A stretch of DNA of 40,424 nt, taken from NCBI GenBank assembly GCA_030829545.1, contig JAURAI010000012.1, positions 1 through 40,424 of the forward strand. The letters are read 5' to 3'. This DNA is from Candidatus Poseidonia sp. (GTDB lineage: Archaea; Thermoplasmatota; Poseidoniia; Poseidoniales; Poseidoniaceae). A program made the translations under genes and the position numbers. Under the pieces are notes generated by a model. That model had not been told where the DNA came from and did not search any database. It saw only the letters and a list, made by a program, of their open reading frames with translations. Positions 2-39,440 of this stretch are shown piece by piece (positions within the stretch are counted from its first letter, which is position 1; each line of letters begins with the position of its first letter).

Positions 2-403
2 GAACGCTCGGAGACCTTTCCTAAAGAATGGTCCTCGGAGAAGTTAACTCGTTCGATTGAACGATATGAAAAATTCTTGAAATTAGCTGCGAAGAACCCA
101 ACATTATCTATTGCTCCAACAAGCGATATTGACGAAATTTGGCACCTTCACATGCTTAGCCCTGTTTCATACTACAACGACTGTATGTCATTGATGGGAA
201 CAATTCTAGATCATGATGGAGGATTTGGTGCGAAACCCGAGGAAATTCCTGAGCTAGCATCCACATTCAACAAAACTGCCAAACTTTGGGAAGATGAATA
301 CGGAGAAGCGTATGTTGATGATCCTGAAGGACAACTAACGGATCATCTTGTGAAGTGCTGGCACGACTGTCAAGGTCGATGTTGGAATGCCTGCAAATCA
401 TAG
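2..403 (+). CDS. GRDP-like (DUF1399-type) protein, 3' part
   Basis: The reading frame is open to the left edge, so the gene starts outside the window. A TTG at 77 is not needed as a start, because codons from position 2 continue the same protein. The central motif DEIWHLHML followed by YYNDCMSLMG and LDHDGGFG is the hallmark of the glycine-rich-domain-containing protein-like family (DUF1399), best known from plants and fungi and scattered in bacteria. The later segment KLWEDEYGEAYVDD also fits the family. The molecular function is unknown. The visible C-terminus ends in a short Cys/Trp-rich tail (CWHDCQGRCWNACKS), which could bind metal or form disulfides; that is inference. The stop codon TAG abuts intergenic element A directly. 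The gene converges on the lipoprotein gene at 533-1459. Confidence 0.7.
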   Translation, partial: ERSETFPKEWSSEKLTRSIERYEKFLKLAAKNPTLSIAPTSDIDEIWHLHMLSPVSYYNDCMSLMGTILDHDGGFGAKPEEIPELASTFNKTAKLWEDEYGEAYVDDPEGQLTDHLVKCWHDCQGRCWNACKS

Positions 404-530
404 GGCCCCCTTTGCTTAAACGTATGAGCAGTGGGTAGGCTATGACAAAGCCCACTGCGAACCCTCTGATTGGCTCAAACGAATCAGTGGGATTGTTCGT
501 TGACCCTATGATTCGCTAGAATAACGATTC
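403..530 (+). repeat. Structured intergenic element A
   Basis: This copy of the dispersed intergenic family fills the gap between two convergent genes. It contains a hairpin with a perfect 8-bp stem (GCAGTGGG at 428-435, CCCACTGC at 451-458). A second, 11-bp stem with two mismatches pairs 481-491 with 504-514. The stretch from about 429 to 528 aligns over its full length with element E (about 38050-38149), at roughly 80 percent by eye. The 13-mer AGGGCCCCCTYTG at its left end is shared with element F. Confidence 0.8.
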
Positions 531-532
531 AA

Positions 533-1459
533 TCAGGATTGATGTTCAAGCACATCTACCAATGAGTAGACAACATAGAATCTGTAGTCTCCATCTTCAT
601 GCAAACTTCGCTCATAAGTCCAAAATTCGAATGTTGTATCAACGGTAGCACTTCCAATCGGAAGAGTCGAACACGATGTTCCCATCATTCTGTCCCACAT
701 TTGGTAAATCCCCGTCTGATACGAAAAACTGGGCCAAGGGTTGTTTCCAGCGTATGAGTACTGTTCCCCATAAGCGGTATGGTAGTATTGTTCATCGGAG
801 TACCACATAGTGATGGTTGGGGTTCGCTCGCACATGATTGCTTTTCCAGCAGGGATTTCAATCTCGAAGAGTGTCACAGGGGCCATGCTTCCGGAATTAG
901 AACCATTTCCGGTATAACTTTCATCACATGCTGCACGGACGAACGACTCATAGGCATAATCACGATACAAGTCTGCGATGGTGTTGTTATACTCATTCTG
1001 CCATGCCAACATGTAATTTGAGGAGTCTTGCCAATATGGAACAGGAGTTGATGCAAGACCAACCAAATAATATCCAACACACTCCAATTCGTATTCATAC
1101 ACGCTTTCATTATTCTCCGAGTAGTTGTATTCTCGATATTCGGCAGTGAACGTGTTGTTCATGTGATCTATGCCTGGTGAAATCCCCATCACATCGTCCA
1201 TTGTAAAACGATAATCAACGACATAGTACTCAACCTGTGGTGAAAGGGTGCCGTTTGTGTAGTAATTTGTGCTGCTGTCTGTTTCATCGTTGATAGTGAT
1301 GGTTGTATTGTTGACAAAATCTTGGAAATAATCATCCATGATTGAATCAAGTTGGTCGTCGGTCAATTCAACTTGAACGGTTCCGGAGTCATCATTTCCG
1401 ATGCACCCTGCGAGGGACATCGTCAACATTAGACCAATCAAAAGTACGGGCTTCTTCAT
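533..1459 (-). CDS. Predicted secreted lipoprotein, unknown function
   Basis: This is a 308-residue protein with a lipoprotein signal peptide: a short positive N-terminus (MKKP), a hydrophobic stretch and a lipobox LAGC that places the modified cysteine at residue 19. The mature protein is acidic, rich in Tyr and Asn, and contains many N-glycosylation sequons (NNT, NYS, NES, NGS). It has a few widely spaced cysteines that may form disulfides outside the cell. I recognise no domain. The start is the ATG before MKKP. A TATA-like sequence at about 1481-1490 lies about 26 nt upstream, which suggests a leaderless mRNA. The gene is flanked by element A at its 3' end and element B at its 5' side, and is probably accessory cargo. 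Confidence 0.75.
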   Translation of the reverse strand: MKKPVLLIGLMLTMSLAGCIGNDDSGTVQVELTDDQLDSIMDDYFQDFVNNTTITINDETDSSTNYYTNGTLSPQVEYYVVDYRFTMDDVMGISPGIDHMNNTFTAEYREYNYSENNESVYEYELECVGYYLVGLASTPVPYWQDSSNYMLAWQNEYNNTIADLYRDYAYESFVRAACDESYTGNGSNSGSMAPVTLFEIEIPAGKAIMCERTPTITMWYSDEQYYHTAYGEQYSYAGNNPWPSFSYQTGIYQMWDRMMGTSCSTLPIGSATVDTTFEFWTYERSLHEDGDYRFYVVYSLVDVLEHQS

Positions 1460-1480
1460 ACCGACGCGTCATCTTTCCCA

Positions 1481-1490
1481 TTTTTATTGA
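1481..1490 (-). promoter_or_regulatory. TATA-like box of the lipoprotein gene
   Basis: On the minus strand this reads TCAATAAAAA. It is centred about 26 nt upstream of the ATG at 1459, the normal archaeal distance from TATA box to transcription start. Transcription would then begin at or next to the start codon. No SD-like sequence is seen before the ATG. Confidence 0.45.
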
Positions 1491-1512
1491 TTTTGGCGGA
1501 TTCGAAATTGTT

Positions 1513-1635
1513 TACAAATCAAAGGGGACCCCTCTGATTGAATGGGTATGCAGAGGGTAGGCACTGAAAAGACCCACTGCAAGCCCTTTGATTTGTCCGT
1601 ACCTGAGCAATGGGTATTCGGATACACCGAATGAT
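1513..1635 (+). repeat. Structured intergenic element B
   Basis: It has a perfect 12-bp inverted repeat (CAAATCAAAGGG at about 1515-1526, CCCTTTGATTTG at about 1584-1595). Nested inside is a 7-bp hairpin, CCCTCTG with CAGAGGG. A 25-base stretch at 1569-1593 is identical to 38068-38092 in element E, and 1529-1560 matches 39326-39357 of element F with one mismatch. The right part carries TGAGCAATGGGT, which also occurs in element D. It lies 3' of the winged-helix gene and 5' of the lipoprotein gene. Confidence 0.8.
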
Positions 1636-1890
1636 TCACTCGAGTAGAAACCAACGAGTTCCAACTTGTTGAACAACTTCTTCGCGTTCCATCATGCAAA
1701 GAACAGTTTTGGAGATCCAATCTCTATGTTGAATATCGGTGTGAGGGCCAATCCCACCACGGATACCTAACTTTCTAGCAACGTCAACATTTCTCATCCC
1801 TTCCTCTTTGTTTTCGCTAAGAAGGTTGTATATCGCTGATTTTAACATAGAAATCGCTAGTTGGGCTTGATCATAATCTGTATTTCTCAT
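1636..1890 (-). CDS. Small winged-helix-like protein
   Basis: This is an 84-residue protein starting at ATG 1890 (MRNTDYDQ). A TTG 18 nt upstream is possible but less likely. The middle (RNVDVARKLGIRGG) looks like a helix-turn-helix, followed by HRDWISKTVLCMMEREE and a final strand pair (VVQQVGTRWFLLE) that fits a winged-helix wing. Small proteins of this design are common near mobile or defence genes and may bind DNA; the exact family is not identified. A regulator or a nuclease accessory factor is possible. It stands alone between elements B and C, and its 5' end faces the small membrane protein gene at 2045. Confidence 0.6.
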   Translation of the reverse strand: MRNTDYDQAQLAISMLKSAIYNLLSENKEEGMRNVDVARKLGIRGGIGPHTDIQHRDWISKTVLCMMEREEVVQQVGTRWFLLE

Positions 1891-1944
1891 GGTGAGTCCA
1901 ACCCCCAATCACGTATAATTCTCCCGGGAGAAAACTGTGCACTT

Positions 1945-2035
1945 TGCAAAGGGGGTCCCTTGAGTAAGACGGGTTGGCAAGGGGTACGGTCTGATGACCC
2001 TTCTAATCAGAGGGTCCCCTTTGATTAGAAAGTGC
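1945..2035. repeat. Structured intergenic element C (divergent copy)
   Basis: The most diverged member lies between two divergent genes. TCTAATCAGAGGG (2002-2014) pairs with CCCTTTGATTAGA (2017-2029) over 13 bp with one G-T pair and a 2-nt loop. A second hairpin pairs CCCTTG with CAAGGG around 1957-1983. The layout GGGGnCCC, then GGGTnGGC, then GGGGTAnnGTCTGATGACCC follows the order seen in elements B and F. Confidence 0.6.
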
Positions 2036-2044
2036 TAAAGTTAG

Positions 2045-2338
2045 ATGGATAATAGGAAAATCATGGCCAACACGAACATGCTAATTGTAGGAAGCGTGTT
2101 TGTAATCGGTGGAATCCTCACAATCCCGTTTGTTGTTGGCCTTTTGTGTGCCCCTTTTGGATGCTTTTTAATGTTCCTGGGTATCATTATGTCAAATCCT
2201 ACGACACCACCTGTTGTTGTTAATCAACAACATCGTGCTGCAGGAGGCGGCTATGTGCATGTGGGATATAATCAACAAGGACAGCCAATCTATGCTCCAG
2301 CAAACTCAATGCCTAATCAACATCAACTTAGGAAGTAA
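2045..2338 (+). CDS. Small membrane protein with Gln/Tyr-rich tail
   Basis: This is a 97-residue protein; an internal ATG at 2063 (MANTNM) is an alternative start. Two closely spaced hydrophobic segments at about residues 12-34 and 37-50 form a predicted helical hairpin. They are followed by a soluble tail with HVGYNQQGQPIYAP, a low-complexity Gln/Tyr/Pro pattern. Such tails often mediate protein contacts, but the function is unknown. No SD is visible. The gene sits alone between elements C and D, and converges on the M28 peptidase gene. Confidence 0.6.
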   Translation: MDNRKIMANTNMLIVGSVFVIGGILTIPFVVGLLCAPFGCFLMFLGIIMSNPTTPPVVVNQQHRAAGGGYVHVGYNQQGQPIYAPANSMPNQHQLRK

Positions 2339-2426
2339 TCATAGGGTCAATGCACAAACCCACTGCTTCGTTTTGATCCAACCAAAGGGGCCGCAGTGGG
2401 TCTTTTCAGACGCTACCCATTGCTCA
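2339..2426 (-). repeat. Structured intergenic element D (inverted copy)
   Basis: This is the family in reverse orientation. Positions 2345-2362 are the exact reverse complement of 38110-38127 in element E (18 of 18). Positions 2393-2418 match the reverse complement of 38054-38079 at 25 of 26. The element fills the whole gap between two convergent genes, and its end TGAGCAATGGGT supplies the TGA stop codon of the M28 peptidase gene. Confidence 0.85.
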
Positions 2427-3791
2427 GACTTCACCGGCTTCGTCGTACCATCGGCCGTAGAAGTTCTCAGCGTTGTCCACTCGAACAAAGAGATCCAACG
2501 AGGACCATACAAGGGAGTTGAATCCACTCTCCATACCGGTTTGGCCCCCTGCCTTGGCGGTCATGAACTCGAGGGTGTCGGAAGGCGAGTGCCACTCCTG
2601 CCAGAACGAGATATCCCCTCCGGGGCTGAAGAAATTGAAGGTCGGGTAGCCTGCAGAGAAGAAGGAACAGTGGTCTGATGCGCAGGATTCGGCGATTTGC
2701 CACCGAATGGGGTTGCCCTCTGTTGGCGTGTAGGCAAGGTCCTCCTCAATGGTCGTGCCCACCCAAGCCATCATCCGATCCATGTTGGTCTGATTCGCTC
2801 CTGCAATGCTGATGTCCCAGTCGTATTTCGTTGGTGCAAACAACTCACCACCCGGTCCCACGATGGGTTCGGTCAGCGGAACGATGGGGTAATTGAGAGA
2901 GACCATGTCGAAATTCAGGTAGGCTTTCACCGAGACATTCTCAGGTAGGTTAGCCACGTAGGCTCGAGAGCCCAGCAAACCTTCCTCTTCACAGGCCCAC
3001 AAGCCTGCCACCACCGTGTGGTCAAACTCCATTTTCGCCAAGGCTTGAGCCATTTCCAAAGAGACGGTGGAGCCAGAGGTGTCATCGTTTGCGCCTTCGT
3101 TCGTACCACCACTTGGAGGCGTGAAGGCATAGGCGATGTCGAAATGCCCGCCTATGACGATGTATTCATTGGGATTCGTTAGCCCCCAATTATAACCCAC
3201 TACATTGAGTTGAGCAGGGTCGTCTTCGTACCGGGTGACTTCAACGAAATCAAAGCCCATATCCCACATCCTGAGGGCCATGGCTTCAGCGGCTGCCTCG
3301 TAGGCGGCTCCACCTTCGTGAATGGAGGCTTCGGCACACCAACGGTTGTTGTACTGATTGGTGAGCATGTCGATGGTCTCGTAAGCACGTCGTCCGTCAA
3401 CCAGCATCAATTCAGAACTGTCTTCAAGCGGGAAGGTGGCGTTCCACGACTGGTCACCGGCCGTCACGGAAAGGTCAATGCTGTCACGTTCTGAATCCAT
3501 CACCAGCATCGTTACACCGTTGGCACTGGCTGGAAGTACGAAGTTGATATCGTCACGCAAAACACCGCTCTCGTCCATGAAGAACACGCCTGGAGACCGG
3601 GAGATGGTCCAGTCCACCGTGCTCGTGAAATTGATGGTCAGGTATTGTCCGCGGGTGGCGCTGGTTGGCATGTTCTCATCGGGAGTGAGCTTGGCCACGA
3701 TAGGAGGCTCCTCGTCTTCGCCAAAGCAGCCTGATAGCGGCGCCAACACGAATAAGGAAACGAGAAACATGGCATAGAGACGCTGCATCAT
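2424..3791 (-). CDS. M28-family zinc metallopeptidase, lipoprotein
   Basis: This is a secreted aminopeptidase-like enzyme of family M28. Starting at ATG 3791 (MMQRLYAMFLV), it has 455 residues and a lipoprotein signal with lipobox LSGC, so it should be anchored outside the cell and act on peptides. An N-terminal beta-rich region (about residues 30-130) precedes the catalytic domain. The usual M28 metal and catalytic residues are all visible: IGGHFD (His216), EGANDDTSG (Asp236), ACEEEGLLGS (Glu268-270), NFDMVS (Asp295) and EWHSPSDT (His401). The start is 1 nt after the serS stop, so the two genes are probably cotranscribed. A longer frame from 3863 would overlap serS and is rejected. The stop codon lies inside element D. 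Confidence 0.88.
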   Translation of the reverse strand: MMQRLYAMFLVSLFVLAPLSGCFGEDEEPPIVAKLTPDENMPTSATRGQYLTINFTSTVDWTISRSPGVFFMDESGVLRDDINFVLPASANGVTMLVMDSERDSIDLSVTAGDQSWNATFPLEDSSELMLVDGRRAYETIDMLTNQYNNRWCAEASIHEGGAAYEAAAEAMALRMWDMGFDFVEVTRYEDDPAQLNVVGYNWGLTNPNEYIVIGGHFDIAYAFTPPSGGTNEGANDDTSGSTVSLEMAQALAKMEFDHTVVAGLWACEEEGLLGSRAYVANLPENVSVKAYLNFDMVSLNYPIVPLTEPIVGPGGELFAPTKYDWDISIAGANQTNMDRMMAWVGTTIEEDLAYTPTEGNPIRWQIAESCASDHCSFFSAGYPTFNFFSPGGDISFWQEWHSPSDTLEFMTAKAGGQTGMESGFNSLVWSSLDLFVRVDNAENFYGRWYDEAGEV

Positions 3792-3792
3792 A

Positions 3793-5085
3793 TCAACCCC
3801 ATTCGCACGGCTCAAGCACCGTTTGACCACCCATGTAGGGTTGAAGCGCATATGGCACCGCAACCCGTCCGTCCTCTAGTTGGTATTGTTCCATGATCGC
3901 CACAAGCGCTCGAGATGTCGCAACGGCAGTTGAATTCAGGGTGTGAACAACAGGTTGGTTTGGATGACCTGGTTGCCCGTAACGAATGTTGAGGCGATTG
4001 GCTTGGTAGTCTGTGCAGTTTGAGCAGGAGACGATTTCTTTGTACTGCTGTGCAGCAGGAATCCACGCTTCAAGGTCGTATTTCTTGGCAGCAACTGTCC
4101 CCATATCTCCGGTACAGATGTTTACCACTTCGTAGTGAATACCGAGGCTGTTCCACAAATCAATACAATTCTTGAGAAGTTCTTCGTGGAGCGCCCATGA
4201 ATCCTCTGGACGAGCGATGATGATTTGTTCAATCTTGGTAAATTGGTGAACCCGCCAAATACCCAGGTCGCTTTGACCGTGGCTTCCTACCTCTCGACGA
4301 AAGCACTGAGAAACGCCCACCATCCGAAGAGGCATTTGTTCCTCAGGGATGGTTTCGTCCATGTACATGGCAGTAAGAGGGTGCTCTGATGTTGCAATCA
4401 TGTAGTACTTGTCGGGTTCAATACCGTACATCACGGTTTCAAAATCGGCCAGGTCGGTCACGCCCTCGTAGGCTTGACGATTCATCATCACGGGTGGTTG
4501 AACGAAGGTAAATTCTCGCTGACGAAGAAATTCGACGGCATATTGCTGGAGAGCGAACTCCAAACGGGCCAAGTCGCCCTTGAGAAAGAAAAAGCGGCTA
4601 CCGCTAATCTTTGCCGCACGCTTGAGGTCAACCCAACGGTTCATCTCGATGAGGTCGTTGTGCGGCCGTGGCTCGAAAGAGAAACTCGGCTTCTCGCCGT
4701 GAACGGCGTGAACGGTATTGCCGGATTCATCAGCTCCTTGAGGGACATCGTGGTGCAGGAGATTGGGAATGGACATACGGAGCCTGTCGCGGGTTTCCAT
4801 CGCCTCATTGGTCTGGGATTCCATCGCACTGATGCGTTCACCAAGGTCGGCTACCTGAGCGAGAATGGCATCAGCCGCAGCATGATCGCCCGCCTTCTTC
4901 GCTGCGCCTATACCGCGTGCAGCCTCGTTCTTTTCACGGCGCAACTGGTCGGTTTCGTGAAGCAAATTACGCCATGACTGATCGAGTTCAATCACTCTCT
5001 CAATGGCATCATGAGGGATGCCTCGCTTGGTGTGGTCAGCCCTGATGAGGTCGGCTTCTTCACGGAAGAGATTCATGTCAAGCAT
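3793..5085 (-). CDS. serS: Serine-tRNA ligase
   Basis: This class II synthetase charges tRNA-Ser in the cytoplasm. From ATG 5085 (MLDMNLFREEADLI) it has 430 residues, normal for the common bacterial/archaeal SerRS. A GTG at 5097 would overlap the upstream gene. The N-terminal arm (about residues 25-100) has the heptad pattern of the tRNA-binding coiled coil. Motif 2 is seen as FRREVGSHGQSDLGIWRVHQ and motif 3 as LNSTAVATSRALVAIMEQ. TSEHPLT and FTKIEQ are typical active-site segments. It is the normal type, not the rare methanogenic SerRS. It follows the presenilin-like gene by 5 nt and precedes the M28 peptidase by 1 nt. Confidence 0.96.
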   Translation of the reverse strand: MLDMNLFREEADLIRADHTKRGIPHDAIERVIELDQSWRNLLHETDQLRREKNEAARGIGAAKKAGDHAAADAILAQVADLGERISAMESQTNEAMETRDRLRMSIPNLLHHDVPQGADESGNTVHAVHGEKPSFSFEPRPHNDLIEMNRWVDLKRAAKISGSRFFFLKGDLARLEFALQQYAVEFLRQREFTFVQPPVMMNRQAYEGVTDLADFETVMYGIEPDKYYMIATSEHPLTAMYMDETIPEEQMPLRMVGVSQCFRREVGSHGQSDLGIWRVHQFTKIEQIIIARPEDSWALHEELLKNCIDLWNSLGIHYEVVNICTGDMGTVAAKKYDLEAWIPAAQQYKEIVSCSNCTDYQANRLNIRYGQPGHPNQPVVHTLNSTAVATSRALVAIMEQYQLEDGRVAVPYALQPYMGGQTVLEPCEWG

Positions 5086-5090
5086 GCATA

Positions 5091-7280
5091 TCACCACGAG
5101 ATGTTGAAACTAAAGATTCCTGTTCCCAAGAAGATGAGGCCGCCGATTAGGTAGCCTAGAATCGCTCCACCGTTCAACAGAGGAAGGCCTGCTTGCGCCT
5201 TGCCACGGGCCACATAGGTCATGAGCGCAAGATAGCCCATCAGTCCGCCAAATAGGGTGGTCATAGCGACGGAAAAGGCCACGGACGGGTCCAGCCATTG
5301 CATGGCAGAGAGAACCAACATACCGGGGAAGATGACATCGCCCAAGCCCATGAACATCGCTTCGCTGTTCTTTTTGGCTTTCTTGGGCTTGACTCTTGCT
5401 TTTTTGTCCTCCGAAATGATGGTTTCATTGGAACGTTTGGCCTGTTCGGTTTCCTCGATAAGTGAATAATCTGCCCCTTGTGGAGCGACCAAAAGAATCG
5501 GGAGGCGCAAGCCGATCATCGTATCGGCCAAATCGAGCATGTGCTTGGATTTGTACACGGCCCAGAAGTCGTAAATCGCTGCGAGAATCATGAACAACAT
5601 GGCCAAAGCAGGAACGAAGGTGACCCCGAGCATCACACAAACTCCGGCACCGAGAAGAACTCCTGTGGTGTTGACCACATACCATTCGCTGTGAACGAAG
5701 AGAAGAATCATGAGGACCGCCGTTACAAAGAGCCCCGCCAGGGTTGGAAGGAGAAGCAACTGAATTCCATAGAGGGGGAACATGGATTGGGTGAGTTCCC
5801 CTGACTGAAGGAGAACGGTTGTTGCATCGCTTTGAGAAACGGTGACGAGGTGGGTTTCATCATCTCCAATGGCAAAGAAGGTGGCCACGTTATCTGCTGG
5901 AATGCTGAAACTGGCGCGGTTGACCAGTGACGTGGTGTACAACCAGTGCACTTCCTCTTCATCAGCAATCAACAAATCAGTATAACCTGATTCGTCCAAA
6001 TCAGTGATCCTTACCGACGTCACCGACGTGACAAGGCTGTCCAGAACCATTCGCTCTTGCAGTGAAAAGGCTTCGTCGTTGGATTGACTCCCGTCCCATT
6101 CAATGCCTGTGATGGTGCCGTTGTTTTCACCGAGCAGAATCATACGACGGTTCTCAGGAACCATGCTTGCATTGTCTTCTTCAAACGGGGAAACGCCAAT
6201 ATCTGCGCTCGTGTAAGTAGCATCCGCTTGTGGAGCGTGCTCAAAAAGAACGGTGATGTTGTCGAGGCCCCCAAGTTGTGAGGTCTCTTCCAACAGAAGA
6301 ACACCCGCATGCTCAGGCGTAACCAACGCCAACTGGTCGTCGGTCAACAAGGTGCTCATAATCGCCCCGTCTGCGAGGCTGAAGCCTGGTGTTCGCCAGC
6401 GCGCCTCTGGGCCGAGAACTCCCGGTGCTTCGGAAAAGGTACGGAAGCGTTCGACCTCTTCGAAGGGATTGAACAAGTACATGGCTTGGTCTGTGGTAAC
6501 CGCTAATGCACATCCACCAATCATGTTTGAGATGGCGACTGGTGTGCCTTCTGAGTTGTTTTCCCAGCACGCATATGATTCTGTCACTTCGCCGGTTGAT
6601 GCATCAAGGGTCCATGCATAATATCCACTTGCAAAGGTCAAACCGTAGGAGCTTGTCGTCATTCGAACGGGAGAGGACCCGTCAGCAATGGAATGGTTGT
6701 GTACGTTCGACCAGACGGGGGATACGTATCCATTGGAACTGTCCCATGCCGTAATATTGACGACGGGTTGATCGGTGGTTTCGATGGTCTCAGCGAGAAT
6801 ATAACCGTCTTCTCCCCACGTGCCGAGGAAATCACCTGCTTGCTGTTCGGTGTTGGTAACTTCGTAGGCTTCGGTATCAAAGTCCAACACAAACATGTGT
6901 GCCAGCGGTACCGTGCTGTAAAGAAGAGCCAAGGTCAACACCGCCATCATACCGTATTTGATGATGTATTGCTTGCCCCAACGAGCAAGGAAAATAATGA
7001 GGGCTGTGAAGGCAAAAATGGCCACCAATTCAATGGCTACGTACCGGACTTGGGTTGCACCTGAGGCGCCAAATGCATGGAGTTCGCCCACATCGTAGTA
7101 GGGTCGAATGTACATGGCAAGCGCAATGGTGGCGATGAACATGCCAGCCATGCCGGTCATGCCTTTCCATTGGTCCTGCATCAGTGTGAGAAGACCGTCT
7201 TCACGGCGAAGTTCATCCTCCACTTCAGCAAAGCGCTTGGACACGCGAGGTTCAACTGCCCCGTCGCCGTCATCGCTCAT
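5091..7280 (-). CDS. Presenilin-family intramembrane aspartyl protease with large ectodomain
   Basis: This is a 729-residue membrane protein (ATG 7280). Nine hydrophobic helices fit the presenilin/SPP fold: TM1-3 at about residues 44-134, TM4-6 at about 500-576 and TM7-9 at about 645-720. Both catalytic motifs are present: AAIYDFWAVYKSKHML in TM6 (Asp571) and FMGLGDVIFPG in TM7 (Asp648). GLPLLNGGAI in TM9 takes the place of the PAL motif, as in archaeal homologues. A Lys-rich cytoplasmic loop lies between the two Asp residues. Unlike the roughly 300-residue archaeal presenilin homologues, it carries about 365 residues between TM3 and TM4. Their repeated beta-strand pattern (ITAWDSSNGYVSPVW, AWTLDASTGEVTE, VRITDLDESGYTDLLIADE) looks like a PQQ- or FG-GAP-type propeller. 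Substrates are unknown. It lies just upstream of serS. Confidence 0.85.
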   Translation of the reverse strand: MSDDGDGAVEPRVSKRFAEVEDELRREDGLLTLMQDQWKGMTGMAGMFIATIALAMYIRPYYDVGELHAFGASGATQVRYVAIELVAIFAFTALIIFLARWGKQYIIKYGMMAVLTLALLYSTVPLAHMFVLDFDTEAYEVTNTEQQAGDFLGTWGEDGYILAETIETTDQPVVNITAWDSSNGYVSPVWSNVHNHSIADGSSPVRMTTSSYGLTFASGYYAWTLDASTGEVTESYACWENNSEGTPVAISNMIGGCALAVTTDQAMYLFNPFEEVERFRTFSEAPGVLGPEARWRTPGFSLADGAIMSTLLTDDQLALVTPEHAGVLLLEETSQLGGLDNITVLFEHAPQADATYTSADIGVSPFEEDNASMVPENRRMILLGENNGTITGIEWDGSQSNDEAFSLQERMVLDSLVTSVTSVRITDLDESGYTDLLIADEEEVHWLYTTSLVNRASFSIPADNVATFFAIGDDETHLVTVSQSDATTVLLQSGELTQSMFPLYGIQLLLLPTLAGLFVTAVLMILLFVHSEWYVVNTTGVLLGAGVCVMLGVTFVPALAMLFMILAAIYDFWAVYKSKHMLDLADTMIGLRLPILLVAPQGADYSLIEETEQAKRSNETIISEDKKARVKPKKAKKNSEAMFMGLGDVIFPGMLVLSAMQWLDPSVAFSVAMTTLFGGLMGYLALMTYVARGKAQAGLPLLNGGAILGYLIGGLIFLGTGIFSFNISW

Positions 7281-7379
7281 GGGTGATGCCAATCATCCCT
7301 CTCATATCAGCCTCGCGTTCAAATCAAGCATGACAGAACAAAGGAAAGAGGCTATGTTGCCCGCTTACCTGCAACGTCC

Positions 7380-29886: not shown

Positions 29887-29908
29887 GGACGACCTCCTCA
29901 ATTTAGCC

Positions 29909-30490: not shown

Positions 30491-30497
30491 TGCTGAG

Positions 30498-30899
30498 TTA
30501 GCCGTGAAGGTGGTGCTCCACCAATCGTTCAACGAACCGTCGTTGTTCGCCCGACCAGTCACAAATGAACACCCGAACATGGCTTCGGTCCGATGCAAGA
30601 ACGCCTTTGTCAAAACCCGACGCAATCACATCGCTTTGTACGAGAGGCAAGTTCTTTCCGCTGAAGATGAATTCGCAACCTTCGGATGATACTGAGGCTT
30701 CTCCGCATGCAAAGGTAATCGCAGTATCATTGCCCTCGCAAGCAAGTCCACCCGCCTGTAAAAAGCGCTTTAGAGCACTGAGAATACTGGACCCGTCGAC
30801 TTCCCGGTTGCCATCAACGCCCCCGTAGGCTGAAAGAAAGGAGAGCTCTGCCTCATTCTGTTCCATGAGGTGGTCAAGTCCGCGTTCATCATCGGTCAC
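30498..30899 (-). CDS. Cytoplasmic protein coupled to the SAP-domain gene
   Basis: This is a 133-residue soluble protein without signal peptide or membrane helix. The start is GTG 30899, which overlaps the stop codon of the upstream 745-residue gene as GTGA, so the two products are likely made in coupled amounts. It has alternating helix and strand pattern, with ENEAELSF-type acidic helices early (NEAELSFLSAYGG), CEGNDTAITFACGEASV and a basic C-terminal helix (RRFVERLVEHHLHG). I recognise no family. Context suggests that it works with the membrane protein. Confidence 0.65.
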   Translation of the reverse strand: MTDDERGLDHLMEQNEAELSFLSAYGGVDGNREVDGSSILSALKRFLQAGGLACEGNDTAITFACGEASVSSEGCEFIFSGKNLPLVQSDVIASGFDKGVLASDRSHVRVFICDWSGEQRRFVERLVEHHLHG

Positions 30900-33133: not shown

Positions 33134-33226
33134 GGTCATGCCTCAGCAAAGCGTGAGCCTCGTGCCTTTCAAGGGTGGCGTTGTTTTGTCAGGTTTTTGC
33201 ATCATTCTGGCAACGCTTTTGCTTCT

Positions 33227-34231
33227 TCATTCCGCTTGATAGGGAATGTATTCACCATCTTCACCCTGGACAAAGACGGTTTGGTCGTAACTTCCGTCAG
33301 CCATTTTCTTGTAGAAATATCCGTTTTCTGCAGGTTCAAAGGTGTACGCTGCTTCTTCCGCCGCAGCAGGTTCGCTAGAAGCATCAGGCGAAGCAACAGG
33401 AGCGCTTTCAGGGGAGCCAGCCTGCTCTGAATCTTGAGGTGGGCCACTGGGTCCTGCGCTGGGGGGGCCACTTGGACCAGAAGCGATTCTGGACTTATTG
33501 ACTTCCGAGAGAACCTTCGATTCCGTCGTTTCATTTTCACCCTCAAGGATGGAACGAAGGACGCTGCCGTGTTTTTGCGCGCCAACAAAGGCAAATGCAG
33601 AGAGCGAGAGACAAGTTAGGCCCAGAAGACCACCAAAGAATTGGTTCGGGTATAATTTTCCGCTAACGCTTAGCCCGTCTGTAGATTGGCCAATCTTCTC
33701 TCCTTCATCGCTCATGTATTCCACAATAACACAATAATGGCCGGGGTCAATGGCGAATTCGAATTCATACTCACCGTCAACTTGAACGCTCTCTTTCGTT
33801 TCTTTGTACTGGTAGGAATGTGAGGCGCCTTCACGGGCTTCTGTGGTGTATGCACCAAGGTTTGATGCACAGTCCTCCTGTTCAATCATGTATACGCCGA
33901 TGTGGACGTTGGATTGGGAAGGAGGTTTTGTTGCAGTCACCGTCAAGCGGACGGGAACGTCAAAGATATCCTCGCCATCAACGGGAACGCCCCATACGAG
34001 GCCCACGTCTTTTTCAGCGGATTGGGTGAATCCATCGTACTCGGCAGAGAACGGCATGGGGAAAAGGGCGAAGGCGAAGAGAATAGCTGCAACTCCAAGA
34101 TACATGAACACGTTCCAGCGAGCCTTTTTGAGCCGCTCCTTCCGTTCTTCAAGAGATAGTTCTTCCAAGAGTTCATCTTGATCTTCATCAACAGAAAGTG
34201 CTCCAGCCGCATCAAGTTCCTCATCCGACAT
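33227..34231 (-). CDS. Two-helix membrane protein with aromatic C-terminal motif
   Basis: This is a 334-residue protein. An acidic N-terminus (SDEELDAAG, DELLEELSLEERKERLKKA) leads into membrane helix 1 (WNVFMYLGVAAILFAFALF). A beta-rich extracellular domain of about 140 residues follows, with two Cys, then helix 2 (FFGGLLGLTCLSLSAFAFVG). The cytoplasmic tail is Pro/Ser/Ala-rich and ends in an aromatic module (YTFEPAENGYFYKKMADGSY then DGEYIPYQ) loosely like OCRE-type Tyr repeats. Function unknown. ATG 34231 has GGAG 6 nt upstream, which is better than GTG 34243. The SAP gene follows on the same strand with a gap of about 90 nt. Confidence 0.7.
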   Translation of the reverse strand: MSDEELDAAGALSVDEDQDELLEELSLEERKERLKKARWNVFMYLGVAAILFAFALFPMPFSAEYDGFTQSAEKDVGLVWGVPVDGEDIFDVPVRLTVTATKPPSQSNVHIGVYMIEQEDCASNLGAYTTEAREGASHSYQYKETKESVQVDGEYEFEFAIDPGHYCVIVEYMSDEGEKIGQSTDGLSVSGKLYPNQFFGGLLGLTCLSLSAFAFVGAQKHGSVLRSILEGENETTESKVLSEVNKSRIASGPSGPPSAGPSGPPQDSEQAGSPESAPVASPDASSEPAAAEEAAYTFEPAENGYFYKKMADGSYDQTVFVQGEDGEYIPYQAE

Positions 34232-34332
34232 GAAAGACTCCACGGCCTCCGAGCACTTGAAAGGCGCGACCGCCCAACGTGTGCCCGGGAATGACCGATG
34301 GCATCAAAAACGAGTTCCCCGGTCGTGATGCT

Positions 34333-35523
34333 ATGGGGCTTAGTTTAGCCGTCTTGAGTCGCGGACCGCGTCTGTACAGCACGCGCCGTATCGTCGAGGA
34401 GGCGCGTAACAAGGGATTGCGTGTTGAAGTATGCGACCCAATGAAATTCTCCCTGATGGTCACAGATGGGAGTGTCGATGTTCTCCACAAAGGCAAGCAC
34501 TTCGCTTTTGATGCCGTCATCCCGCGTATTGGCCATTCAATCACTCAGCACGGTGTTGCCGTGCTTCGACACATCGAGCAGTTGGGAATTTGGACTGCCA
34601 ACACCGGCCAAGGCATTCTGCAAAGCCGAGACAAATTGCATGCCTCGCAAATTTTGGCTCGTAACCGTATTCCGGTTCCACGTACGGTTTACGTTCGGGA
34701 CATTTTGGATATTGAACAAGCCATCGACATCGTCGGGGGTTTGCCTGTCGTCGTTAAAGTCACACAGGGCACCCAAGGCGACGGGGTGTTCCTAAGACAC
34801 ACTGCGTTTGAAGTTCGTAACCTCGTGCAGGGGCTCTTGATGACTGGTAAATCGGTGCTCGTGCAGGAATACATCGCTGAATCCCACGGAAAAGACATTC
34901 GCGCTTTGGTGGTAGGGGATCGTGTGGTTGCTTGCATGCGCCGCCGTGCAAGAGGCCGAGAATTTCGAAGCAATTACCACCTGAACGGGACGGTTGAAAA
35001 CGTTGACCTTCCCCCAAGATACGCTGAAGCAGCCTGCCGAGCAGCCCGCGTATTGGGTCTCAACATCGCTGGCGTTGATTTGCTGGAAGGCAACGACGGT
35101 CCTTTGGTCCTCGAAGTCAATTCATCGCCTGGCCTCGAAGGCATTGAGAAAGCAAGCGGTGTCAATGTAGCGGGGGCTATTGTTGACTACGTGATGGAAG
35201 ACACGGCCTTTAGCGAGGTTGACCTCGACCAATTATTGCGAACGGTTCCAGGTTCGGGTGTCCTTTCTCTCCAGCTGCGTAACCATCCAAAAATGGTCGG
35301 GAAGCGTTTGGATGAAGTCTTTGCCTCAATTCCCGTATTCGCCCTCTCTCGAGGCGACCGTTTGGTATGGAATCCGGATGCAGAAGTTCAACTGCGTTAT
35401 GACGATGTCTTGGTCTGTTATGGTGAATTGACCGAACTTCGCTCATCACTACGACAAGCGATGCTTGGTGTTCCGCGAGATGCACTCAACTTTGACGAGT
35501 CAAGAGGACAAACCGAAGGTTGA
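34333..35523 (+). CDS. RimK-like ATP-grasp ligase with C-terminal RCK_C-like domain
   Basis: This is a 396-residue protein (ATG 34333, MGLSLAVLSRGPRLYSTRRI). The first roughly 290 residues are a RimK-type ATP-grasp ligase: VIPRIGHSITQHGVAVLRH, SRDKLHASQILARNRIPVP, PVVVKVTQGTQGDGVFL, QEYIAESHGKDIRALVVGD and the metal-binding LVLEVNSSPGLEGIE. Such enzymes add glutamate to proteins (S6) or cofactors (MptN, CofF). The remaining roughly 80 residues (GKRLDEVFASIPVFALSRGD, then LRYDDVLVCYGELTELRSSL) resemble the TrkA-C/RCK_C ligand-binding domain of K+ channels, which might sense a nucleotide or other ligand. Substrate unknown. GTG 34279 and ATG 34291 upstream are possible but extend past the family start. 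The gene is divergent from 34231. Confidence 0.85.
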   Translation: MGLSLAVLSRGPRLYSTRRIVEEARNKGLRVEVCDPMKFSLMVTDGSVDVLHKGKHFAFDAVIPRIGHSITQHGVAVLRHIEQLGIWTANTGQGILQSRDKLHASQILARNRIPVPRTVYVRDILDIEQAIDIVGGLPVVVKVTQGTQGDGVFLRHTAFEVRNLVQGLLMTGKSVLVQEYIAESHGKDIRALVVGDRVVACMRRRARGREFRSNYHLNGTVENVDLPPRYAEAACRAARVLGLNIAGVDLLEGNDGPLVLEVNSSPGLEGIEKASGVNVAGAIVDYVMEDTAFSEVDLDQLLRTVPGSGVLSLQLRNHPKMVGKRLDEVFASIPVFALSRGDRLVWNPDAEVQLRYDDVLVCYGELTELRSSLRQAMLGVPRDALNFDESRGQTEG

Positions 35524-35562
35524 TTTGCAAATACCCTAAGGCCAACCTGGAAAATGAGAATC

Positions 35563-35730
35563 TCACTTCATCATTTCTTCGATTTCCTTCGAAGCAAGAA
35601 TCAGAGTAGGTGCCCAAAGGCCAACAAAGATACCAAGATTTTGATCTCCGCTGATAAAGTAGACGTACAACGAACCCACTACTGACAACATGCTTGCTAC
35701 GAATCCTATTTTTGAAATTTGGCCGGCCAT
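35563..35730 (-). CDS. Small two-helix membrane protein (55 aa)
   Basis: The encoded protein begins MAGQISKIGFVASMLSVVGS and ends ASKEIEEMMK. Two hydrophobic helices (about residues 8-26 and 32-47) are joined by a short SGDQNLG loop, and the second ends in FVGLWAPTLILA. AGGAG lies 8 nt before the ATG, which strongly supports expression. Small proteins with a similar GLWAPT segment occur in bacteria and archaea without known function (from memory). It is divergent from the PhoX gene, with 140 nt between starts, and converges on the RimK gene. Confidence 0.75.
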   Translation of the reverse strand: MAGQISKIGFVASMLSVVGSLYVYFISGDQNLGIFVGLWAPTLILASKEIEEMMK

Positions 35731-35740
35731 TTAAATTACT

Positions 35741-35768
35741 CCTGTTCACCAATGAAACCTGTTTACTA
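35741..35768. promoter_or_regulatory. Direct repeats in the small protein/PhoX intergenic region
   Basis: CCTGTTCACCA (35741-35751) and CCTGTTTACTA (35758-35768) are two 11-mers that match at 9 of 11 positions and start 17 nt apart. They sit just upstream of the small membrane protein gene and in the shared divergent region with PhoX. They could be an operator. A chance match in a region of this size is not excluded. Confidence 0.25.
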
Positions 35769-35870
35769 ATAGTCTTATGTACATGACTTGAGTAAATACT
35801 TCAATTCAACGGACTGGTTGGTGCACGGGTCCGGAGGAACGTTTTTGACGCTCGCTTTCCAGAGGCTAAC

Positions 35871-38036
35871 ATGGGCAATAAGTCTGCGTTGATTCTCTGT
35901 TCAATCGGGATGTTACTCATCCTCAACATGTTGCCATTTGCTGTTGCTCAAAGCGATGAATCTGAGTCTTCGGCCCCGATGACGCGTATCATGATGTTGC
36001 CTCCGGAAGCCGAAGTCACAGGCATGCATGTTGATGCCAACGGCCATTTTTTCGTCAACGCCATGCATCCTGACACCGATCAGTACAAAGCGACGGTTGG
36101 CGTTGTTCACGGAGTTGATTGGAACAACCTTCCTGAAACGGTTCCCGCACTGGAGACTTCCAGCAGCCCGCAAGACATCTGGCACGGCATTCGCACATCC
36201 TATGGTGAATATCAGGTCCTCCTGCAAAGCGGCGATGTGCTGACCGAAGGTGGGTTGGCGGGAGGCATCTACGCTGCAGACGATGGAGCGCAATTGTACC
36301 TGAGTCAGAAGCCCGATTACAACGCCTATGTGCCCGCCACCGCCGACGGGCTTCGAGGTTTCCTTTACACTGCTTGGGAAGACCGCCCCGCTGGTATCAG
36401 TCAACTGGATATTGAATGGAATTCAACATCGTCCAAATGGGATGTCTTGAACAGTAAAATGCTTGACTTGAGCGATATTAACGGAGGTTGGGTGCTTTGT
36501 TTTGGCAGCATCAGCCCGTGGGGAACGCCTCTGTTTTCAGAAGAACTGTATTTTGACAACACTGAGCGATGGAACGACGAAAGCTTCCGCTACCATTACG
36601 ACCAAACTAGACTCGCGGATTATCTAGGGCATTACCCGAATCCCTACGATTATGGCTACATCATTGAAATTGAAAACGCAGACTCTGCCGACCCTGATTT
36701 GAATCGACATCTCGCCATGGGCCGTTTCTCTCATGAAAATGCAGAGGTTATGCCCGACGAGAAGACCGTCTATTTGACCGATGACGGATACGACACGGTC
36801 CTGTACAAGTTCATCGCCAATACGGCAGGCGATTTGAGCGAAGGAACGCTGTATGCGGCGCATGTTTCACAAGACGAGAACAGGGATGCTTCCACTGCAG
36901 GATTTGATGTCAACTGGATTGAATTGGCTTCATCGTCATCAGCAGAAGTTCAAACATGGATTGACGAATACGACGGCATTACAACGGCAGATTTTGTAGC
37001 TGGCGAAAACTCGTACATCTCAGATGCCGAGATCAACGATTGGGCTGAAGCCAAATTGAATGACGACATCAATGGGGACGGAGTGATTGGAACTGCCGCA
37101 GACAACAGAGTTGCCTTCCTTGAATCTCGAAAGGCAGCGGCGGCTCTTGGAGCCACCGACGAATGGAATAAAATGGAAGGCGTGGCCTTCAACCCCAAGG
37201 TTCCAGACACCCTTTATTTGGCCATGTCGAGCATCGCTAACGCCATGACTGACGGGCAGGGCGACATTGACCTTACGCAGAACTACTGCGGCATCGTTTA
37301 CCGAATGACGATGAGCAACCAGTGGAACGTGAACAGAATCGACCCAGCCATCATTGGAGGGCCTTACACCGCTTCGGACGACTACGAATGCGACATCAAC
37401 AATCTTGCAGGACCCGACAACCTGCTTGTTCTTGATGATGGGCGGGTGCTTGTCGGCGAGGACACTGGAAAACACGAGAACAACATGGTTTGGTTATGGC
37501 AAGATGTTGATTCAATCGTCGTGAGGAATGAAAACATCACTGTGAACACGATTGCAGCTACCAACACTCCCTCTGACAACGCATCTCCATGGACCTATGA
37601 ATACCAAGCAGAAGTTCGTGAACTACAACCTAGCCAAACCTATACGGCAATCATTCTCGTAAAATCAATGGATGATGGAGAAGTGAATGCCATGTGGTGG
37701 TGGAACGACATCAATTCCAACGGGGAACAATACAACCGTACGTTTTCAATTGAGCCCGGCTGCTACGTCATCGAAACATCGCTCTATGAACGGGACGATT
37801 TCAATACTGATGTGAAAAACGCCACCGTTCTCTCTGATTCGAGGGAGGAAGTGGTCGTTGGAACAGGGACCTGTACGGACGGACGTTACGTCGGAGAAGT
37901 CGTCATCAACAACGGCACGGAAGAGACGAATAACGATGCAGAACAAGAAGCCGACGCTGTTCCAGGATTTGCTTTCAACCTCTCCATAACGGCGACCGTT
38001 GGAGCGCTGATCTTCCTTAACAGAAAGCGACGGTGA
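35871..38036 (+). CDS. PhoX-like (DUF839) alkaline phosphatase, C-terminally anchored
   Basis: This is a 721-residue exported protein with a Sec-type signal peptide (LILCSIGMLLILNMLPFAVA). PhoX-family signatures: CFGSISPWGTPLFSEE, MGRFSHENAEVMPDEKTVYL, YKFIANTAGDLSEGTLYAA, WNKMEGVAFNPKVPDTLYLA and GPDNLLVLDDGRVLVGEDT. PhoX enzymes are Ca/Fe-dependent phosphomonoesterases used to get phosphate from organic matter. An EF-hand-like loop (DINGDGVIGTAADN) sits in the middle. After residue 560 come beta-sandwich sequence and an acidic linker. The C-terminus, VPGFAFNLSITATVGALIFL plus NRKRR, has the form of a PGF-CTERM sorting signal (PGF, membrane helix, basic end). ATG 35871 has GAGG 5 nt upstream. 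Confidence 0.85.
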   Translation: MGNKSALILCSIGMLLILNMLPFAVAQSDESESSAPMTRIMMLPPEAEVTGMHVDANGHFFVNAMHPDTDQYKATVGVVHGVDWNNLPETVPALETSSSPQDIWHGIRTSYGEYQVLLQSGDVLTEGGLAGGIYAADDGAQLYLSQKPDYNAYVPATADGLRGFLYTAWEDRPAGISQLDIEWNSTSSKWDVLNSKMLDLSDINGGWVLCFGSISPWGTPLFSEELYFDNTERWNDESFRYHYDQTRLADYLGHYPNPYDYGYIIEIENADSADPDLNRHLAMGRFSHENAEVMPDEKTVYLTDDGYDTVLYKFIANTAGDLSEGTLYAAHVSQDENRDASTAGFDVNWIELASSSSAEVQTWIDEYDGITTADFVAGENSYISDAEINDWAEAKLNDDINGDGVIGTAADNRVAFLESRKAAAALGATDEWNKMEGVAFNPKVPDTLYLAMSSIANAMTDGQGDIDLTQNYCGIVYRMTMSNQWNVNRIDPAIIGGPYTASDDYECDINNLAGPDNLLVLDDGRVLVGEDTGKHENNMVWLWQDVDSIVVRNENITVNTIAATNTPSDNASPWTYEYQAEVRELQPSQTYTAIILVKSMDDGEVNAMWWWNDINSNGEQYNRTFSIEPGCYVIETSLYERDDFNTDVKNATVLSDSREEVVVGTGTCTDGRYVGEVVINNGTEETNNDAEQEADAVPGFAFNLSITATVGALIFLNRKRR

Positions 38037-38039
38037 GGT

Positions 38040-38149
38040 CCAATCGAATCAAAGGGTAGCGTCTGACAAGACCCACTGCAAGCCCTTTGATTGGGCTAAA
38101 ACGAATCAATGGGTTTGTGCATTGACCCTTTGATTCGTTAGGATAACAA
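38040..38149 (+). repeat. Structured intergenic element E (best-formed copy)
   Basis: It has a perfect 13-bp terminal inverted repeat: CGAATCAAAGGGT (38045-38057) and ACCCTTTGATTCG (38125-38137). Two internal arms, CCCTTTGATT (38083-38092) and AATCAATGGG (38104-38113), let it fold either as two tandem hairpins (a 10-bp perfect stem and a 13-bp stem with one mismatch) or as one long palindrome. It fills the gap between the convergent PhoX and HNH genes and shares long identical blocks with A, B and D. Confidence 0.85.
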
Positions 38150-39277
38150 TTAGGGCAAAGCGAAATTATTGCCAAGAAATTCTTCAAGCACAATCTCATG
38201 AGCCTTCCAAAATTTCTGCCATTTTGTTTTCTTTGTGTCTACATCATGATTCAATAAAAGTGTGTTCAATGAATGGATTCCAGGAGTTGCATACTTGATG
38301 AGCATAGAAGCGATATCTGTCTTTTCAAGATTGTAGTGTGTTCTTTGATACATTCTGTAGATTGGATGATCCATCGGAAATTTATTTATCCATAGTTTCC
38401 AATAATCTTCACTGGGATAACGAGATTTTGAATTTGGAAGTCTTCTCGAAAAGAAACCTGCTGGGATTGTCGGAACGTGAACTATCATTTCCTTCAGTAA
38501 TTCGACTTCTTCTTCGGAGCATTTCTTAATCTCCTTTTTTGAATGTAAGTAGCACATATCATCACCATTCATCGCTTTGTACTGGCATGGAAAATCCATT
38601 ATTGTTAAGCCACTGCATAATCGAGGTTCAACACGCAAATTCGAATGATAATCCCACCATGAAGAAATTGTTCTTGCATTTGAATCTGTTTCAAGTTCAA
38701 TTCTTTGGTTTATCTCCCGAATCCATTTTTTTGGCCATTTGTGATGATAATAACTTTTCATCCTTCTTCTTTTGGCGGGAGAATTGCCGTAATAATCGTA
38801 CAGAACTTCGCAGAGCAAATGGTACTCGTCCATGCGAGCACCTCTATTACTTAGATAATGTTCAAACTCGGTTTTCATAACGTGGTCTTCTGTGAATAAA
38901 GGACGCAAATTATCAAGGCTCCAAACCTTTTCTGAAGTCTTATAATCTTCAATTATGCTTAGAATCGCATCCGAAACATGTGGCGGTTCATTACCACTGT
39001 CAACACGCTCTTGCAACTCATTCAATTTATCTTGATTTGAGCCAAAATTTTCGTCCCACCTTCCCAAACTTAACGGAATAGTGTGATCAATTTGCCATGA
39101 ACCGAAATTTTCCCAACTCATGTCATTGTAAAAATGGCGTTCAAGGTGTTCAGCTAGTTGAATCGGAGTCCACCCCAGTCTATCCCATAAGTTTGCAGTA
39201 GACCCATGGTATTCAGCAAACCGAATTCTGATTCTCTGCCCGCACTTTGACGCCAGTTCACGTGCGGATTTTGGCAT
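38150..39277 (-). CDS. HNH endonuclease-like protein with Cys-rich second half
   Basis: This is a 375-residue protein, AT-rich compared with the core genes. Residues about 35-130 hold an HNH-type nuclease pattern: WTPIQLAEHLERHFYNDMSW, GSWQIDHTIPLSLGRW (the metal/catalytic DH) and, after an insert, WSLDNLRPLFTEDHVMK. This order is common in phage and mobile HNH enzymes. Near residues 215-245 a C-x9-C-x10-C-x2-H pattern (RLCSGL, DFPCQY, DMCYLH) could bind zinc. The rest is helical and unrecognised. It could be a homing-type nuclease, a defence effector or a phage remnant; sequence does not decide. It starts at ATG 39277, with a TATA-like box 26 nt upstream. Confidence 0.7.
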   Translation of the reverse strand: MPKSARELASKCGQRIRIRFAEYHGSTANLWDRLGWTPIQLAEHLERHFYNDMSWENFGSWQIDHTIPLSLGRWDENFGSNQDKLNELQERVDSGNEPPHVSDAILSIIEDYKTSEKVWSLDNLRPLFTEDHVMKTEFEHYLSNRGARMDEYHLLCEVLYDYYGNSPAKRRRMKSYYHHKWPKKWIREINQRIELETDSNARTISSWWDYHSNLRVEPRLCSGLTIMDFPCQYKAMNGDDMCYLHSKKEIKKCSEEEVELLKEMIVHVPTIPAGFFSRRLPNSKSRYPSEDYWKLWINKFPMDHPIYRMYQRTHYNLEKTDIASMLIKYATPGIHSLNTLLLNHDVDTKKTKWQKFWKAHEIVLEEFLGNNFALP

Positions 39278-39298
39278 GGATTGTCCTAGTTTTTTTTT

Positions 39299-39307
39299 GA
39301 TATAAAG
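39299..39307 (-). promoter_or_regulatory. TATA-like box of the HNH gene
   Basis: On the minus strand this reads CTTTATATC. It is centred 26 nt before the ATG at 39277, so transcription should start at the start codon (leaderless). An A-run lies between box and start. Confidence 0.55.
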
Positions 39308-39317
39308 ACCGCTTACT

Positions 39318-39440
39318 CAGAGGGCCCCCTCTGATTGAATGGGTAGGCAGAGGGTAGCGTCTGTATCGACCCACTGAATCCCCTTTGAATCGGGAAATAA
39401 AATGCAAAGGGGTTTCGGATGACCCCTTGCAACTTATCCG
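39318..39440 (+). repeat. Structured intergenic element F
   Basis: Positions 39326-39357 match element B (1529-1560) with one mismatch, including the CCCTCTG/CAGAGGG hairpin. Then come GGGTAGCGTCTG and GACCCACTG, as in D and E. A perfect 8-bp stem, CCCCTTTG (39380-39387) with CAAAGGGG (39405-39412), ends the copy. It lies between the divergent HNH and GIY-YIG genes. Confidence 0.8.

Follow-up and report, generated by a model that had tools for sequence, protein, structure and literature searches.

Repeated palindromic elements of Poseidoniales genomes as putative TA-centred junctions of small gene cassettes

Introduction

Six intergenic regions of a contig from Candidatus Poseidonia sp. share long, nearly identical blocks and palindromic stems, and they raise the question of what sort of element is repeated here and how it has spread. 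The contig (C18; JAURAI010000012.1 of assembly GCA_030829545.1) was analysed over its whole length of 40,424 bases, termed the window; the assembly comprises 28 contigs and 1.63 Mb and is 73.7% complete. The regions, designated A–F, are at 403–530, 1513–1635, 1945–2035, 2339–2426, 38040–38149 and 39318–39440. An earlier reading of the sequence, the original prediction, held them to be related, and all six are present and belong to one family. The elements are very probably junctions between mobile units, i.e. the joined ends of small gene cassettes. More specifically, they are proposed to belong to gene cassettes of Poseidoniales (Marine Group II), most of which have no recombinase and which would be recombined at a TA dinucleotide by a serine recombinase, most likely of a clade termed S1. 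The probability of this reading is put at about 0.7.

Related elements in the window

In a repeat search of the window, A, B, E and F are direct copies, and D/E, B/D and A/D are inverted copies; D and E, which had been predicted to be inverted relative to each other, pair over 99 nt at 82%. Two other predicted similarities were confirmed, one of 25 of 25 bases between B (1569–1593) and E (38068–38092), the other of 31 of 32 bases between B and F, where the common block is CCCCTCTGATTGAATGGGTA[T/G]GCAGAGGGTAG. The core CAnnGGGTAG-N12-CCCACTGC is found at A, B, D, E and F. When up to three mismatches are allowed, the pattern CAnnGGGTAG-N4-TG-N6-CCCACTGC has six matches in the window (0.02 expected), and none of 100 shuffles reaches six. 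Core matches are exact at A (429), B (1551), D (2422, minus strand) and E (38050). The core at F (39348) has one mismatch, and the sixth match is the reverse reading of F with three mismatches. Region C had been counted as another copy of the same element; it is related to the others, but is a junction of a different type.

Anatomy of the junctions

Conservation begins abruptly at CAnnGGGTAG in 121 aligned copies, with almost none to the left, and therefore the element represents one end of a unit, termed the left end (LE). LE columns are numbered on an alignment model, A1 (A1, R1), which was built from 48 copies. The unique copies (121–150) were collected via LE similarity and are a biased sample, which misses part of the right ends that lack an LE. 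A GGG..CCC palindrome, the second module, is found 20–23 nt left of the model start in 20 of 123 unique left flanks, compared with 1/120, 2/119, 1/101 and 3/97 in control windows; with matches at any distance included, 23 of the 123 have it. To judge by its sequence, this module is the right end (RE) of the neighbouring unit. A unit is laid out as an LE of ~90 bp, one to a few genes, and an RE of ~45 bp. A, B and F, with an RE module in the left flank, each join two units (RE+LE). At D and E, it is the 3′ end of a host gene to which the LE is joined. Junction C reads RE-TA-RE.

All three types of junction, LE-RE, RE-RE and LE-LE, have a common TA flanked by CAnnGGG half-sites. The TA is at A1 columns 12–13 in 122 of 130 LE junction copies. 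Eleven strict RE-RE cores, CAnnGGG-TA-CCCnnTG, were found; an RE palindrome is present on at least one side in ten of these and on both sides in five. LE-LE sites were selected as overlapping or abutting LE matches on opposite strands, and all seven that were inspected read half-site - 13 nt - TA - 13 nt - half-site. Left partners without an RE palindrome still have the half-site CAnn[GC]3 in 61 of 103 cases, where ~0.8% is expected. Thus, the target is more than TA.

Units are arranged in mixed orientation. With repeated loci removed, pairs of LEs 200–5000 bp apart have the same orientation in 30 cases and face each other in 12, and three further pairs stand back to back within 200 bp. Two junctions of opposite orientation from one genome (L047, positions 119 and 3377; G029:C5) have at least 100 identical left-flank bases and diverge right after GTAGCG; they look like a duplicated RE joined to two different LEs. 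Since the elements are end-to-end junctions of mobile gene units, the original prediction is supported in two of its guesses at once, namely recombination sites and non-autonomous mobile elements.

Distribution across genomes

The genomes are mostly fragmented metagenome-assembled genomes (MAGs), with genes called as the longest open reading frame (ORF), and the figures for distribution include the window's own genome. Of 389 genomes of the phylum, 83 have matches to the family at E <= 1e-5; 82 of these are in the order of the window and one is elsewhere in its class. By the names of the matching records, the order is Marine Group II. BLAST with element E alone finds copies in 33 of 59 genomes, and the A1 model in 28 of 39, with up to 13 copies per genome and nine in the window's own. 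Among named genomes the element pattern is found in 87 stretches, of which 85 are in records named Poseidoniales, Poseidoniaceae, Poseidonia, Thalassarchaeaceae, Euryarchaeota or uncultured euryarchaeote. The remaining two are in a Chloroflexales MAG and a Gemmatimonadetes MAG. The LE of the latter (L133) scores high, at 93 bits. It is carried by a contig of 4.7 kb with low coverage, probably a Poseidoniales contig present as contamination. Viral contigs have no matches to two LE patterns. CM001443.1, a MAG with a single-contig chromosome record, has three copies, two of which were inspected.

Copies crowd at contig ends, as expected of hypervariable junctions: 29 of 86 are within 200 bp of an end, compared with 3.2 expected (86 of the 87 stretches were counted; L085, which has no LE match, was dropped). 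In a full-text search whose coverage excluded subscription journals and preprints, no title or abstract opening among the top-ranked papers describes such cassettes in this group.

Exchange, targets and cargo

Genes common to different genomes show homology that ends at the junctions. An example is window 2003–2426, which is 91.5% identical to a unit of another genome (L052); further units bounded in this way are L082/L088 (87%), L071/L137 (93%), L064/L140 (89%) and others. Where a pair of copies shares the right side and not the left, identity spans the whole LE and stops at columns <=27 in 12 of 13 pairs, the 13 pairs being derived from about six independent cassette families. One stretch of the window's own assembly (L010, G000:C20, 3718–6658) is 99% identical over 2.9 kb to L090 of another species (G007) and diverges inside the element, which suggests either recent transfer or misbinning.

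Places that may represent targets were found outside the window. In G031, a bare CAGAGGG-TA-CCCACTG (L033, 595–610) directly follows a TAA, with no RE on either side, and is a candidate for an empty insertion target. The sequence behind the PhoX orthologue of G015 is CAAAGGG-TA-CCGAAGG, followed by an RE-like palindrome; this is suggestive only, but a unit may have been inserted here in the other orientation. CM001443.1 has a lone unit, RE - one gene - LE (L299), and its gene is also in a unit of G032, with homology that ends in the RE half-site. Orthologues of the host genes on the D and E sides have an LE within 150 bases behind the stop codon in 0/14 and 0/14 loci, respectively, with at least 100 bases of flank. 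One locus in each set has an LE ~1.3 kb further on (L154, 67 bits; L184, weak, 24 bits).

The cargo was surveyed with 50 proteins: two are encoded by window genes, and 48 come from the 63 ORFs between junctions, a set from which near-duplicates, doubtful ORFs and the S1 gene were omitted. They match 28 Pfam families; the 25 listed, nearly all matched once, include HxlR and other regulators, GIY-YIG and HNH nucleases, AIPR and small membrane proteins. PADLOC matches are to 13 families, the best being PD-T4-3 (9.5e-36) and AbiU (2e-15).

A single TA at the junctions, together with short non-autonomous units and subterminal repeats, might also come from DDE transposons that target TA (a Tc1/mariner or IS630-like family), or from miniature inverted-repeat transposable elements derived from such a family. 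However, the ends are not equal terminal inverted repeats, as 13 nt separate TA from CCC in the LE and none in the RE, and a half-site retained by left partners that lack the RE palindrome is more than a TA target. In addition, there is no transposase family among the 25 of 28 Pfam families listed for the cargo, although IS630 was not searched for in the genomes. A DDE origin is considered quite improbable.

Structure of the left end

According to the original prediction, stems differ between copies and yet stay paired. This applies to one internal stem. Columns 38–47/59–68 of A1 covary, with 25 double-change cells compared with 5.9 in shuffles (0/500). Two other stems, tested jointly, are weaker (28 cells compared with 18.5; 41/500), and the covariation test shows nothing for the 3-bp hairpin of the tip. 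The RNAalifold consensus of the copies has only 4 pairs. Symmetric half-sites read by one protein would also covary, and a covarying stem is therefore not sufficient to show a folded RNA or single strand. Both things on which the original prediction had been made to depend are found, namely copies in related genomes and covariation, and its interpretation is partly supported overall.

The covarying stem and the location of copies behind stop codons, at a median distance of 22–27 bp, raise the question of whether these are structured intergenic RNAs or terminators spread by ordinary homologous recombination. On the left of the LE, 69 of the 121 unique copies have a gene that points at it and 40 a gene that points away, which is a mild preference for stop codons that face the element. 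There is no such preference on the right, where 50 genes are co-oriented and 42 opposed (in 29, no gene is called before the sequence ends). Bidirectional terminators, another guess of the original prediction, are not well supported, as copies are found between convergent, divergent and tandem genes. Known RNA families were rejected: with Rfam, tRNA is the sole family matched in the window, and there is no match to the elements. Nor do exchange boundaries fall along the 90-bp LE, as they cluster at the core in the 12 of 13 pairs above, and TA-centred RE-RE and LE-LE joints do not fit such elements. This explanation therefore seems very unlikely.

Candidate recombinases

Resolvase-family proteins are found in nine of 59 genomes and form two groups, S1 and S2, a split that rests on search score and sequence rather than on a tree. 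S1 is a clade of serine recombinases of ~263 amino acids with PF00239 and, in two of three tested, a partial PF07508 (Recombinase domain). R18, S20, D93, R94 and R97 are kept in all six aligned proteins, with a spacing that is presumably that of resolvase active sites. By sequence, the solved structures closest to S1 are those of TP901-1 integrase and a DNA invertase. Among NCBIfam models, CcrB (E 8e-23, 4e-26) and XisF match best, with all matches far short of the model cut-offs.

S1 genes are found close to junctions. An LE junction is within ~1.5 kb in 10 of 12 S1 loci examined, two of which (L282, L287) contain partial genes. Among the controls, no junction is near any of 18 other serine recombinases or any of 30 Xer-like loci, and a strong junction is near one of 15 other tyrosine integrases. 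In eight S1 loci (nine genes), the LE is 18–353 bp upstream and in the same orientation. The two loci not counted are L270, with LEs 1.5 kb away, just outside the examined piece, and L273, where 106 bases separate the start from a contig end. Beyond the 12, G043:C17 has nothing above 17 bits and G125:C45 has a weak 13-bit LE 172 bp upstream. S1 units with both ends are present twice in G125 (L297) as LE - S1 - further genes - RE; most units seen have no recombinase gene. It is about as probable as not that S1, a candidate put forward from its sequence and neighbourhood, is the enzyme. Relatives of S1 at 12 loci in viral contigs are 24–33% identical. Three serine recombinases outside S1 (L277, L278, L280) adjoin genes that by eye resemble GIY-YIG nucleases and have no LE junction.

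The same cassettes could instead be moved by a tyrosine recombinase, either Xer-like or a tRNA-linked integrase, with an overlap of 7–12 bp, a feature of Tn916 and similar elements. PF00589 is matched in 53 of 59 genomes, a count that includes the window's own genome, mostly by one strong Xer-like protein, and the 12-nt tip of the LE (TAG to CCC) goes with the left or the right partner, much like the overlap of a staggered exchange. However, RE-RE junctions have only TA between half-sites, which is hard to fit to an overlap of 6–8 bp. Xer-like proteins were rejected as junction neighbours by the 0/30 loci. A divergent clade of tyrosine integrases, found in 14 of 318 genomes, was considered as an analogue of the integron integrase IntI because of its position at contig ends: L232, L233, L234, L235 and L236 (G005, G023, G053, G058) start within 400 bp of one. 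This was rejected by the strong junction in only 1/15 loci, a second being a 19.5-bit partial match. Several protein tails of the clade (GGFEPPA...) look like read-through into a tRNA gene at the 3′ end, and several of the genes adjoin an apparent adenylosuccinate synthetase. These integrases are probably a separate family of tRNA-integrated elements. On balance, movement by a tyrosine recombinase is thought unlikely, though less so than a DDE origin.

Proposed mechanism

In the serine-recombinase reading, S1-type dimers would bind CAnnGGG half-sites, pair two ends and exchange strands at the central TA, by a 2-bp crossover and a circular or excised intermediate. S1 would be housed in cassettes of its own (LE - S1 - RE) and act in trans on cassettes without a recombinase. 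The target in the host would be the half-site palindrome CAnnGGG-TA-CCCnnTG, often just behind a stop codon, and cassettes would be inserted in either orientation, with arrays building up. TA is the same on both strands, and the reaction would therefore have no polarity, which leads to LE-RE, RE-RE and LE-LE joints and to mixed orientation of units.

Several observations weigh against this mechanism. The ends are asymmetric, as the LE half-site is 13 bp from TA and the RE half-site is directly beside it. Break points of identity vary among pairs, some at GTAG and others before CCC, and the pair of window D and L052 breaks at column 53, inside the LE and not at TA. Near-identical units may have different 12-nt tips (flank identity 98% in L127/L041, 96% in L093/L132, 94% in L046/L044 and 93% in L098/L079), which crossover at TA alone does not yield. 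At the lone unit of CM001443.1, a run of N directly behind the TA of the RE makes the joint with the host unreadable. With respect to the enzyme, there is no resolvase-family match in the window's own genome, which is incomplete, and S1 proper is found in about 10 to 12 of 318 genomes of the order. LEs linked to S1 score low with the bulk model (often 25–50 bits), and their half-sites therefore differ in part from those of the units that S1 would serve in trans. Finally, one divergent tyrosine integrase, that of G005, is 63 bp from an LE, which favours the tyrosine alternative.

Two other accounts of the tip were rejected. Target-site duplication does not agree with a tip that is equal on both sides of same-orientation neighbours in 1/21, and crossover at the conserved TG of the tip does not agree with tips that move as linked haplotypes.

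Comparison with known systems

Integron cassettes, including clusters of attC sites lacking an integron integrase (CALIN), are similar in being modular one-gene units at a structured recombination site, with unrelated small genes in arrays, homology boundaries at the sites and exchange between species. The mobile unit found here likewise consists of one gene and one site, is sharply bounded and has a distinct RE as well. Integrons have also been reported in archaeal MAGs (PMC9668308). Perhaps, then, these are degenerate or atypical integron cassettes. However, the attC core motif, RYYYAAC...GTTRRRY, is present in 1/121 copies per orientation, which is the level of shuffles (0.5), and attC sites were rejected on this basis. 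Each unit has two unlike ends, and TA-centred joints exist in three combinations, including RE-RE and LE-LE, with units in mixed orientation. None of six tested proteins reaches the integron-integrase cut-off of 265 bits (best divergent integrase 22.9 bits, Xer-like 114 bits); the PF00589 matches of the 59 genomes were typed only in part, with no search for the IntI-specific domain. An integron origin has very little probability.

Elements of serine recombinases (SCC/Ccr, XisF, IS607) resemble the cassettes in the resolvase domain of S1 and in inverted half-sites around a dinucleotide, which are found in the RE-RE and LE-LE cores with their TA. The staphylococcal cassette chromosome (SCC) inserts at the 3′ end of a gene, another point of likeness. 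They differ in that S1 has only ~263 amino acids, the dinucleotide here is palindromic and most units lack a recombinase.

Repetitive extragenic palindromic (REP) sequences and bacterial interspersed mosaic elements (BIME), which are associated with REP-associated tyrosine transposases (RAYT), are short intergenic palindromic repeats with an adjacent GTAG, and to this extent are alike. Here, GTAG is the join itself and the units carry genes. A REP/RAYT system was rejected, as the Y1 transposase (PF01797) has no match in the window's own genome, at 73.7% completeness; relatives were not searched.

Features of the window

Units 2–5 of the window have both ends: LE_A-533..1459-RE_B, LE_B-1636..1908-RE_C, LE_D-2045..2338-RE_C (reverse) and LE_E-38150..39277-RE_F. 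Unit 6, which encodes a GIY-YIG protein, extends towards the contig end. A possible far joint of unit 6 is GATAGGG-TA-CCGTTCC near this end (40281–40287), but it is not accompanied by a visible RE palindrome.

Table 1. Junctions and cargo genes of the window.
Feature	Position	Strand	Remarks
Junction A, RE of unit carrying gene 77–403	394..435	+	palindrome CATAGGGCCCCCTTTG (399–414) at fixed distance, then half-site CAGTGGG
Junction A, putative TA crossover dinucleotide	436..437	.	A1 columns 12–13
Junction A, LE of unit 2	438..515	+	LE alignment/model
Cargo gene of unit 2, lipoprotein-like by eye	533..1459	-	no Pfam match
Junction B, RE of unit 2	1516..1557	+	CAAAGGGGACCCCTCTG ... CAGAGGG
Junction B, TA	1558..1559	.	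core pattern
Junction B, LE of unit 3	1560..1638	+	LE alignment/model
Cargo gene of unit 3	1636..1908	-	no Pfam match
Junction C, RE of unit 3	1945..1984	+	CAAAGGGGGTCCCTTG ... CAAGGGG
Junction C, TA of RE-RE junction	1985..1986	.	CAAGGGG-TA-CGGTCTG
Junction C, RE of unit 4, opposite orientation	1987..2027	-	homology with L052 begins at 2003
Cargo gene of unit 4, small membrane-like protein by eye	2045..2338	+	no Pfam match; unit common to another genome of the genus
Junction D, LE of unit 4	2335..2413	-	LE alignment/model
Junction D, TA	2414..2415	.	half-site CAATGGG 2416–2422 beside stop codon (2424–2426) of host gene 2424–3863
Junction E, half-site CAAAGGG and TA (38057–38058)	38050..38058	+	starts 14 bp past stop codon of PhoX-like host gene 35871–38036
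Junction E, LE of unit 5	38059..38137	+	LE alignment/model
Cargo gene of unit 5, 375 amino acids	38150..39277	-	no Pfam match at E 0.01
Junction F, RE of unit 5	39316..39354	+	CAGAGGGCCCCCTCTG ... CAGAGGG
Junction F, TA	39355..39356	.	core pattern
Junction F, LE of unit 6	39357..39435	+	LE alignment/model
Cargo gene of unit 6, LEM-3-like GIY-YIG domain protein	39506..40240	+	PF22945, E 6.6e-9

Implications

In the surface ocean, Marine Group II is one of the most abundant groups of uncultured archaea. The cassettes appear, from their sequences, to be swapped between these organisms by a system that would resemble bacterial integrons but be distinct from them, with an enzyme that is probably a small cut-and-rejoin recombinase. 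The chances are roughly even that Poseidoniales have a gene-capture system independent of integrons, in which a minimal serine recombinase, acting in trans at a palindromic TA, shuffles LE/RE cassettes in free orientation, and arrays form by LE-RE, RE-RE and LE-LE joining. If so, gene exchange in Marine Group II would become directly testable through a widespread cassette system for which the ends, a target and a candidate enzyme are defined. It would help to explain why assemblies break at the junctions, and it would represent a second, non-tyrosine route to the gene modularity known from integrons.

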